From Agelas oroides (Eukaryota; Porifera; Demospongiae; Agelasida; Agelasidae), in the NCBI GenBank assembly GCA_949130485.1, contig OX422196.1, forward strand, positions 711,388 through 775,387: 64,000 nt of DNA, in the 5' to 3' direction. Both the position numbers and the translations under genes were made by a program. Below are positions 41,944 through 45,669 of the stretch, one piece after another. The notes beneath the pieces are model-generated. The model was not told where the DNA came from and searched no databases. It saw nothing but the letters and a program-made list of their open reading frames with translations. Positions within the stretch are counted from its first letter, which is position 1. Each line of letters starts with the position of its first letter.

Positions 41944-44900
41944 ATGGCGACGGCTGTGCTGTTACCCGAGCCCATCTTTTCCCCAGGCAACGATAATCAG
42001 CCAGAGGTAATCGTACGGCCGATGCTGACCACGGCGCAGAAAAATTTCAAGACGGTTCGCCACTGCAAATCGATCCTCGCCTGCGAAATTCCAGAGAACA
42101 TCGCCAGGCAGGAATTGAGTGTACCTGGCTCGCGCTGTTTCCTCCTTCATAACCTACTAACGGCAGAGGAGTGCTCCCATTACATCCAAGAAACCGAACG
42201 TATTGGATACGCCGACCTTTCGGGCCTTTTCCCCGCGAAATACCGCTCGAACGATCGGGTGTTGTCACTCTGCGAGCAGTTGGTCGATTGCCTGTGGAAG
42301 CGAATCGAGCCGTTCCTTACTCGCAAGGAGGTCATTCGCGTTCGACCTATAGGTTTTGGAAACCAAGGCACATGGAAGCCGTTTCGACTGAACGAATGCT
42401 GCAAGTTTGGAAAATATAAGTAAGAACACCCCGCCACTGGCTCCAGCTTCTGTTGACTACTTGGGGGCGGAGCTAAGTGGCTGTGCAACATGTTTTTGTC
42501 TTTTATTACTGGCTGGTGTGAATGTTTTATGCCCCTGGTAGGTCAGTTGGTCACTTTTCCCCCCACATTGATGGTCCCTGGGTGCCCCACGAGGATGAGA
42601 GTTCCGTGTTCACAGTGATAATCTACCTCAATTCAGACTTTGAGGGAGGAGCTACTGACTTCATCAACGAAAACAAAACTGGTAATCAAAATTATCTGAA
42701 TCAGAGGCAAAGGAATAAAAGTAGGCCTATGTAAAATTTATTTATAACAATATATAAAACGGTTGCTTTATTCAAACAGTCAAACTGGGAGGGTACCAAG
42801 TACTGCCGCAGTGTTTCCTCGCTGGATTGCCACAGCAGCTCTTAGCGGGAGTCTCCAGATTCAAATTTAGTCCGTTGGCCGAGCTGTTTGAAAAACACAC
42901 ACACACACACACACACACACATATACCTCCAGGTGATGTGGTCTGCTCAGTGCTCCCCAAAACAGGGATGGCACTCCTTTTCAACCATGACACCCTCCAT
43001 GAGGGTAAGCCGGCTACCATGGGAACCAAGTACATCATCCGGACAGAAGTCATGTACCGGCGGGTGGACAGTGAGATGATACCAAACCCTTTAGCCTACC
43101 AGTCTGATGATAACTACATCAAGACCCTTGCCCTCTACTGCAAATCTTGGCACTTGGAACAAGGTGCTACTCATTAGACACTCTCCTATGCGTGTTGTTT
43201 GTGGGTTACACATGCACAAAGCCTTGTATGATCTCTCACATACAGCTGGAGACAGTAAGGGTTTCACCGACACCTACCTGGAAGCAATCAAGCTCCAGCA
43301 GCAAGCTCAAAGATCAATCAGCCAGGATTCCAATGAGATATTCGAGCAACTTTTACCCTATGAAGTTTACATGAGAATATTTGGGTACCTTTCCGCACCT
43401 GATCTTTGTAAAATCATGACAGTGTGTAAGGTACGGAGCACTATGATGAGTAGGATAGTATTCTCAGGTTCAGAATTCCGTCTCCTCCTTCCTTTGTCTC
43501 TGTCGTACACACACACACACACACACACACTCATTCTCTCCAGGCCTGGTATGACATGAGTATGGATGGACAGCTATGGTACGATCTCTATCGTAAGCAG
43601 TGGCCAATTGGAATCAAGTTAGAAGCACAGGTTGACCACACCAAGAAGACATTGAAGGCAAGGATTGCAGTGTGTACGTGTTAGCCTCATTTTCATGAGT
43701 CCTCCACCAGTTTTCATTGCTCATAGTACGAAACGTTTGCACACACACACACACACATACACACACACACACACACACACACACACACACACACACACAC
43801 ACACACACACACACACACACACACACACACACACACACACACACACACACACACACACACACACACACAGCAAGAGCCGGGGGCATTCATCAAAGACTGG
43901 TATGGCCTCTACAAGCAGCGAGTGGCCACAAGCAAGCTAGTGAAGGTGGCGGTGATTGACCTTGGCAGCTTCTCCTGCAAGTGTGCTGCCATTCACCGCA
44001 CTAACTGCACCATCACAACCAGCTGCATAGAATCAGTGGTTGCCAAGGTGAGATTTTCCCTCCTGCACATGCAGTAGCACTGGTAATCCTACATTCCAAT
44101 ATTTTCCTTGATTGCAACACTTTCACACACACACACATCACACACACACACACACACACATCACACACATCACACACACACACAGGTAGAGGGTGTGTTT
44201 GACCTTCACATGCGTCGTCAAGAGTACGAACGCTACTTTTGTGGCAAGGAAGCAAAACAGAACTACCCAGGACACATTTTGAACGTGATTGAGAAGGGGA
44301 TGCCATCTGAAACAGCCATTGGGATGCTACCAGAGATCATCACTGCATTCTACTACGACTGCTGTGTTCGTCCCAAGTATGTGCCAGTCGTTATTCTAGA
44401 GCCTCCATGCGGACTATGGGACAAGAAAATTCGAGGGCAAGTGGCATACTGTTTCCTACGGCAGTTCTTGCAGCCATCAGTCAGCTTCCTCAGTTCAACT
44501 GTGGCCATTCTTTGTGGGTGAGCTGTGAACCATTAAGGCAAAACCCAGACTTACCACTCCAGATTTTGTCTTACAACTTTGGAGATTCCAAAGCTGCGAG
44601 ATAAAATTCAAGATGAGAAACCCTGCTTATGCAATGTCCTCAATTTTCTTTCTTAAGCATGGATCTGATGTCTGGGATAGTACTGGACGTGGGCTATGGG
44701 ATTGTGACGTGTGCAGCTATGTGGAAGGGGGAGGAATCCCCCAATCTCATCATGTGTGACCCAAGTGAAGCTACACCCACCAATCTAGCTGAGATGGTGG
44801 ATACAGCTGCCTCAAGGGCCATCAAGGACACCGAAATGGAAACAACACTCAAGGAACATGTTGTCGTGACTGGTAGGTAGCTTTATCTTGTCATACCTTG

Positions 44901-45669
44901 TTCCAAGAACTAAACTCTAGTCGTTTGCAGTAGCCCCTCTCTAGGCTATTACCCAGCCTTATGTTGCTTGCAGTACAAATTTTGATTTTTGGTTTGCACT
45001 TGGTGTAAGCTGACGAGCAAACTTAGGTTTATAACATCTGCAACTACTGTAACTGTTGCAACTAGCCATGTATCATAGAACAGTTTGAATTCTGCTCACT
45101 GATTGGCCACATGGCAGCGTTTTTGTCTTTTGACGGCAGAGCCAGAGTAGTTTCATGTACTACCTCCTGCTCAGGCGGAAAAGCTGAAAATGTGGACCAG
45201 TTGCGGAAGGAGCTACTGAAGAAGGACAAGGCTTACCGAATCCTTGAACCAGGCAAGTACCATGTAACACTATAGTGGGAAAGGCATTGCATGTAGTATA
45301 GGTGACATTCCCATAATTAGAGTAGTGTAACAATGTGTTTTTTTTGCCGCAGCGGACAAGCTGTTGGCAGGTGTACTAGGGGGCTGCACATTGGTCAATT
45401 TGCCCCTCTTTGAAGATCTCCATACAGAACTGCGATACCCTGATAAGATGGTGGGCCAAAGGGGCTCACTGGCATGGACATCAAATGGTTGGTTCTATGA
45501 GAGCCGTCTTTTGAACTGGATGTGGCACCTCAACTCTTCTTTGGAAGTGTTCAAGTTCGAAGTTTTACAGCTTGGTCCGTATAGAGATAGATCCCAGCAG
45601 CGGCTGGAGTGGCTAAACAAGTGGGAGAAGGATGCCAGGAGAGAGGGGCTGTACACAATTAAAGATTAA
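41944..45669 (+). CDS. Three-domain fusion: 2OG-Fe(II) oxygenase, F-box, actin-related domain; 10 exons, 758 aa
   Basis: Exons: 41944-42419, 42542-42681, 42933-43163, 43246-43430, 43544-43669, 43871-44047, 44186-44517, 44658-44872, 45175-45252, 45353-45669; every phase closes, ending YTIKD-stop. Residues 1-250 are a prolyl-hydroxylase-like oxygenase: iron ligands H167 and D169 (HFSPHID) and H228 (DTLHEG), and the 2OG-binding Arg near 242 (YIIRTEVMYRR). Residues about 317-365 are an F-box (LLPYEVYMRIFGYLSAPDLC), the SKP1-binding part of SCF ligases. Residues about 410-758 resemble actin-related proteins: phosphate-1-like KVAVIDLGSFSCKCA, VVILEPPCGLWDKKIRGQVA and GIVLDVGYGIVTCA. Intron 9 uses a GC donor (CCAG|GCAAGT). 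F-box plus actin-related fusion is known from plant ARP8; the added oxygenase is unfamiliar to me. Function is unknown. Confidence 0.85.
43740..43870. repeat. (CA)n microsatellite ending in the acceptor of exon 6 of the fusion gene
   Basis: About 130 bp of nearly pure CA, ending ACACAG at 43870. Confidence 0.96.

Follow-up and report, generated by a model that had tools for sequence, protein, structure and literature searches.

The 64,000-nucleotide window of Agelas oroides DNA considered here, a stretch of contig OX422196.1, raises the question of whether a single plus-strand gene at positions 41944–45669 joins a 2-oxoglutarate (2OG) oxygenase, an F-box and an actin-like domain in one protein, and what such a protein might do. 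An earlier note, made from the letters of the window alone, had proposed that ten in-phase exons place the three domains on one open chain. The open chain was borne out by the splice model, and the three domains by matches of all three Pfam models above their curated cut-offs. As judged from its sequence, this three-part F-box oxygenase is unusual and real.

Gene model and domain content

We confirmed the gene at these coordinates, with ten exons (Table 1) and a spliced product of 754 amino acids (aa), or 758 aa when the other donor of exon 5 is used. The phases match at every junction and the spliced frame contains no internal stop codon. The start codon is the ATG at 41944, preceded by an in-frame TAG at 41905 with no in-frame ATG between them, and the stop codon ends at 45669. 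The introns range from 82 to 302 base pairs (bp); when their retention was considered, eight of the nine introduced in-frame stops, and the ninth, intron 4 (113 bp), would instead cause a frameshift. GC donors are found at exon 9 (CAG/GCAAGT) and in the preferred model of exon 5. Hexamers of the AATAAA/ATTAAA type between 41800 and 46000 are located at 42714 (intron 2), 45658 (last exon), 45782 and 45956, and that at 45782 is likely the end signal of the gene. Long CA-repeat tracts were also observed at 43740–43870 and 44120–44185, immediately 5′ of the acceptors of exons 6 and 7, and the splicing of these two exons might vary with the length of the repeats.

The oxygenase was recognized by the Pfam model 2OG-FeII_Oxy_3 at aa 155–241 (E = 1.3e-10, 42.5 bits against a cut-off of 27). 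The F-box was matched by two models, F-box-like at aa 318–361 (E = 5.1e-15, 55.4 bits against 24.3) and F-box (E = 2.9e-7, 30.5 bits against 20.5). When compared with the sequences of the PDB, this domain was closest to the F-box of KDM2A (1.1e-6), followed by 1fs1 (2.3e-5), KDM2B (3e-5), a SKP2-like entry (8.8e-5) and SKP2 (2.1e-4). The Actin model matched aa 406–576 with an E value of 1.8e-6, scoring 27.2 bits on the full chain against a cut-off of 27.0, and 29.4 bits on the C-terminal half; it is borderline, whereas the oxygenase and F-box matches stand far above the level of chance. The four Pfam matches listed at E values up to 10, a list from which filters drop most weak matches, include no JmjC model; the NCBIfam scan gave two weak oxygenase matches far under their cut-offs and none for the actin-like part. 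The N-terminus is not hydrophobic, and the maximum of hydropathy over 19 residues is 1.75, at residue 543; the protein is probably soluble, and cytosolic or nuclear.

The oxygenase domain

Homology searches covered PDB sequences, plasmids, phage and viral contigs, and bacterial genomes, a scope within which uniqueness among eukaryotes is unproven. By tblastn, relatives of the oxygenase were detected on 12 plasmid records, 10 of them covering at least 80% of the query, and on 32 phage records, 21 with this coverage. The three best plasmid matches showed 33.8–34.4% identity over 96–98% of the oxygenase (best E value, 4e-25). An alignment of this oxygenase with eight of the plasmid and phage relatives (alignment A1) revealed that H167, D169 and H228, correctly taken as the iron ligands in the earlier note, are invariant in all nine sequences. 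The same note had assigned R242 to the binding of 2OG. In P4H (prolyl 4-hydroxylase) enzymes, a Lys about ten residues past the distal His acts as the 2OG anchor. K238 occupies this position, is invariant in A1 (R242 is kept in eight of nine), and aligns with a Lys of 3itq, a Bacillus P4H, and with an Arg of LH3.

To these sequences we added loci from two wider scans, which recovered 92 bacterial relatives and 98 viral ones; 80 of each were kept. Residues were read by BLASTP against the plus-strand open frames of the kept loci, and the oxygenase was found in all 80 bacterial loci and in 70 of the 80 viral loci. Since the loci had been chosen by peptide patterns, conservation is inflated for YLN, for H167 and D169 in the bacterial set, and for the G-AL-F-H stretch in the viral set; K238 and R242 lie outside these patterns. 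The K238 position was occupied in bacteria by K in 74 loci, R in 4 and N in 1, with 1 unaligned (K or R in 78 of 79 aligned), and in viruses by K in 59 and R in 11 (70/70). The R242 position held R in 63 bacterial loci, S in 3 and N in 2 (12 unaligned), and in the viral loci T in 10, R in 4 and V in 2 (54 unaligned). According to these comparisons, K238 is more likely than R242 to be the 2OG anchor. H228 was His in the 150 loci of both sets. The H167 position was H in 71 bacterial loci and T in 2, with 7 unaligned, and D169 was D in 73, again with 7 unaligned, both counts being inflated by the search pattern; in the viral loci the H167 position was H in 30 and Y in 2 (38 unaligned).

A single-sequence query with the oxygenase obtained weak matches in the PDB (LH3, 0.0021). 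The A1 profile, in turn, placed P4Hs at the top: 3itq (4e-16), 5c5t (6e-13), 2jig (1e-12) and the transmembrane P4H (8e-10), followed at a distance by LH3 (0.0044), collagen P4H alpha-2 (0.0056), DdPhyA (6t8m, 0.047) and a bacterial PHD (4iw3, 0.076). Among the 22 PDB sequences within an E value of 1 of the profile, no entry named human PHD2 was present. This ranking indicates a P4H-type enzyme of a widespread bacterial-like family, with prolyl hydroxylation as its predicted activity, and not a PhyA or PHD enzyme. Membership in the PhyA/PHD branch, suggested earlier by the comparison with PhyA, was thus rejected, the closest solved relatives being other P4Hs. PhyA and PHD2 are also 2OG oxygenases tied to the control of ubiquitin ligases, but they rank far under the other P4Hs in this profile, and they are not known to carry an F-box. 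The bacterial stand-alone 2OG-Fe(II) oxygenases (e.g., those of Nostoc and Mitsuaria) carry the same H, D, H and K as this oxygenase; in contrast, they are about 195–200 aa long and lack F-box and actin-like domains. An exact peptide pattern of the oxygenase core, which reaches close relatives only, found no match in viral contigs.

In three plasmid loci from different phyla (L004, Variovorax; L005, Paenibacillus; L007, Streptomyces), the oxygenase relative is located downstream of nadE (NAD synthase), with a hypothetical gene next in line. nadE adjoins it directly in L004 and L007, and one small gene intervenes in L005; this order could possibly represent a conserved operon.

The actin-like part and its relation to plant ARP8

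The best whole-sequence PDB matches of the actin-like part were HC1 actin (2.4e-4) and ARP1 (3.4e-4), each composed of two collinear stretches that are weak when taken singly (e.g., 0.016 and 170; 0.59 and 8). The phosphate-1 loop (D412LGSFSCK419), the phosphate-2 loop (D562VGYG) and the adenosine motif TGG (residues 623–625) are recognizable. The catalytic site of actin (D11, Q137, D154, D157) is incomplete: D412 and D562 are kept, Q137 is replaced by Ser and D157 by Tyr. For the remaining comparisons, the sequences of beta-actin (ACTB) and ARP8 were entered by hand, and the scores and spacings that involve them carry this limit. The phosphate-2 loop and the adenosine motif are separated by 62 residues, compared with 147 in ACTB and 143 in ARP8. 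Approximately 85 residues are therefore gone where, given the residue range of subdomain 4 in actin, this subdomain is expected, and by sequence the four-subdomain actin fold is incomplete. A missed exon that would restore subdomain 4 was rejected, since the deletion point, at about residues 585–608, falls inside exon 8 (aa 552–623). From TGG to the C-terminus there are 132 residues against 76 in actin, which corresponds to a C-terminal extension. The actin-like module proposed earlier is thus present, with a borderline Pfam match, and the loss of subdomain 4 had been overlooked; the nucleotide binding suggested for it becomes doubtful, given this loss and the Tyr and Ser at the D157 and Q137 positions. 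These features suggest that this part is probably a platform and not an ATPase.

SUSA2/ARP8 of Arabidopsis (At5g56180) also has an F-box ahead of an actin-related domain in a single chain, which supports the parallel with this plant protein drawn in the earlier note. SUSA2/ARP8 is reported to bind ASK1 and to tolerate mutation of its predicted nucleotide-binding residues, and the combination of F-box and actin is called plant-only (PMC7562919). In contrast to the sponge protein, SUSA2/ARP8 is devoid of an oxygenase and retains the residues that separate the phosphate-2 and adenosine motifs. BLASTP against ARP8 gave one alignment with 20% identity (aa 315–577), which extends from the F-box into the actin part. 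The score of the F-box with ARP8 (91) was reached by none of 1000 shuffles. The actin part scored 67 with ARP8 and 79 with beta-actin, both values above all 1000 shuffles, and the score of the linker with ARP8 was reached by 230 of 1000 shuffles. Orthology with ARP8/SUSA2 was unsupported by the actin part or by the linker despite the BLASTP alignment. Because the actin part is closer to beta-actin and the linker is at shuffle level, independent F-box–actin fusions appear at least as likely as common descent. The F-box–actin half obtained no match in plasmids, and the excerpt of the Dictyostelium actinome paper (PMC2441452) was of no help on ARP8 or the orphan ARPs.

Candidate functions and genomic setting

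The best reading, which we hold tentatively, is that the protein could act as a substrate receptor of an SCF (SKP1–CUL1–F-box) ubiquitin ligase, with the actin-like part as a client platform and an oxygenase that responds to O2 and 2OG. The F-box would dock the protein on SKP1–CUL1; the actin-like part, having ceased to be a nucleotide switch, would hold a client in the way proposed for ARP8/SUSA2 of plants; and, given O2 and 2OG, the oxygenase would hydroxylate this client or a part of the protein itself. Ubiquitylation would thereby become oxygen-dependent, and one chain would do the job of two proteins, PHD plus VHL. A stronger form of this proposal, in which the platform captures the client, the oxygenase marks it with a hydroxyl and the F-box delivers it to the SCF, would make the protein a separately built analog of HIF–PHD–VHL, perhaps with an oxygenase-dead splice form produced from the donor at 43005; we regard this form as unlikely.

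Several results weigh against the tentative reading. The Actin match is borderline, the ligand D169 is less firm in the viral loci (D in 25, N in 5, E in 1, H in 1, 38 unaligned), and searches with exact peptide patterns, whose reach is limited to close relatives, recovered no relative of the whole protein in viral contigs or genome contigs. In addition, according to the excerpt on JcdI/Fbxo13, an O2-dependent F-box JmjC dioxygenase that binds Skp1, the effect of its overexpression in Dictyostelium needed catalysis, and the F-box was dispensable (PMC9485057), so the presence of an enzyme and an F-box in the same protein does not imply that they share a client.

This last point favors the main rival, in which the oxygenase works on a client or on itself and the F-box lets the SCF set the level of the protein instead of making it a substrate receptor. 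The lower levels of JcdI in slug cells where Skp1 is modified (PMC9485057) agree with this proposal; nevertheless, it leaves the actin-like part superfluous, even though this part sits at the position where F-box proteins usually bind their substrates, and we consider it somewhat unlikely. JcdI/Fbxo13 and JcdH share with the sponge protein a 2OG dioxygenase and an F-box on one chain; their oxygenase is of the JmjC type and C-terminal to the F-box, an actin part is not mentioned in the excerpt, and the family is reported there as absent from metazoa (PMC9485057). Another F-box oxygenase related to these is FBXO13 of Toxoplasma (PMC11570480).

No description of a three-part protein was found in the titles and abstract openings of the open-access literature. 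The claim that no protein with all three domains had been described stands to that extent, but the pairing of an F-box with a 2OG oxygenase was already known from JcdI and from animals. KDM2A and KDM2B (FBXL11 and FBXL10) are JmjC histone demethylases that carry an F-box together with CXXC, PHD and LRR parts; they are not known to contain a P4H-type or an actin part.

It had also been proposed that the oxygenase hydroxylates the bound SKP1. Such an enzyme, acting on SKP1 or CUL1 as an animal stand-in for PhyA, would be placed beside SKP1 by its F-box, and PhyA hydroxylates SKP1 in protists (PMC7864055). The oxygenase, however, ranks outside PhyA/PHD, and in human Skp1 the proline targeted by PhyA is replaced by Glu147 (PMC7864055), which makes SKP1 hydroxylation in an animal doubtful. 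We find this activity improbable, and a PhyA-like Skp1 hydroxylase was rejected as the principal reading on the A1 ranking, K238 and Glu147.

Another improbable alternative is that two neighboring genes, one for the oxygenase and one for an F-box–actin protein, were falsely merged in the gene model. The donor of intron 3 is weak (AAG/GTGCTA), the frame of exon 3 reads through to a stop ending at 43177, and intron 3 holds an ATG that shares the frame of exon 4, from which a separate F-box–actin gene is formally possible. A better donor (GTAAGC) at 43005 is in frame into exon 4 and would yield a product of 701 aa that lacks both K238 and R242. These features count against a single three-domain product. 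On the other side, just 82 bp separate the halves, intron 3 is free of AATAAA and ATTAAA, the first such hexamer past the stop codon being that at 45782, and the exon phases match exactly. The stretch skipped by the 43005 donor (43005–43163) is conserved with bacterial oxygenases, which indicates that the long exon 3 is coding and that the short form is an isoform at most, possibly one lacking the predicted 2OG-anchor lysine.

That the actin-like part is a nucleotide-dependent switch opening and closing around a client is improbable as well, since it retains DLGSFSCK and TGG but has lost subdomain 4 (62 against 147 residues between motifs) and bears Y and S at the D157 and Q137 positions, and ARP8 works with its predicted nucleotide residues mutated (PMC7562919).

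To place the gene in its surroundings, twenty open frames from the window were searched for domains (Table 1). In the CUL7/CUL9-type gene, CUL7_CUL9_N and IBR were above cut-off, and cullin-neddylation and an ARIH1-type UBA below it. The window also encodes an MFS transporter, a metallophosphatase and a gene with a Dpy-30 motif, and the spacing between genes is tight. The minus-strand ion-channel-like gene seems to start at about 41815 and diverges from the F-box gene; the approximately 130 bp between the two start codons may be a shared promoter. DSL ligands are known only from animals, and the Delta-like gene therefore points to an animal genome. The setting suggests an early-branching lineage, such as a sponge.

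Table 1. Positions in the window of the exons and other features of the three-domain gene, and of neighboring genes
Feature	Position	Strand	Remarks
Exon 1	41944..42419	+	Start codon, N-terminal half of oxygenase, aa 1-158; donor TAA/GTAAGA, phase 2
Exon 2	42542..42681	+	Fe(II) ligands H167, D169; IYLN...FEGG strand
Exon 3	42933..43163	+	Third Fe ligand H228, likely 2OG anchor K238, R242; oxygenase ends here
Possible alternative 3′ end of exon 3	43005..43163	+	Donor GTAAGC at 43005; sequence inspection
Intron 3	43164..43245	+	82 bp; joins oxygenase and F-box halves; no AATAAA/ATTAAA inside
Exon 4	43246..43430	+	Linker, then first part of F-box (to aa 344)
Exon 5	43544..43657 (GC donor) or ..43669 (GT donor, +4 aa)	+	End of F-box, linker
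Exon 6	43871..44047	+	Actin-like part begins; phosphate-1 loop D412-L-G-S-F-S-C-K419
Exon 7	44186..44517	+	Actin-like middle; actin/ARP1 similarity up to phosphate-2 loop
Exon 8	44658..44872	+	aa 552-623; phosphate-2 loop D562-V-G-Y-G to HVVVT just before adenosine GG
Exon 9	45175..45252	+	Adenosine GG, helix after; GC donor CAG/GCAAGT
Exon 10	45353..45669	+	Final strands and helix of actin-like part; C-terminal extension; stop codon
Candidate poly(A) signal AATAAA	45782..45787	+	113 bp past stop codon
Delta-like gene, DSL domain and EGF repeats	4103-9239	+	Domain scan
CUL7/CUL9-type gene pieces	20521-36975	+	Few kb upstream of F-box gene; domain scan
Ion-channel-like gene pieces (Ion_trans, below cut-off)	40799-41815	-	Very arginine-rich segment; domain scan

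An F-box–actin combination described as plant-only (PMC7562919) is found here beside animal-type genes (DSL ligand, CUL7/CUL9-type), and the absence of subdomain 4 from the actin-like part is in its own right an unusual way to employ the actin fold. With an oxygenase and an F-box–actin body on one chain, the protein would be a new candidate for coupling oxygen to the destruction of proteins. Earlier studies had found no HIF in Porifera, and a HIF has been reported in Amphimedon (PMC9618697, excerpt). A HIF-independent, oxygen-dependent ligase in a sponge, if true, would bear on this open point and would be directly testable.

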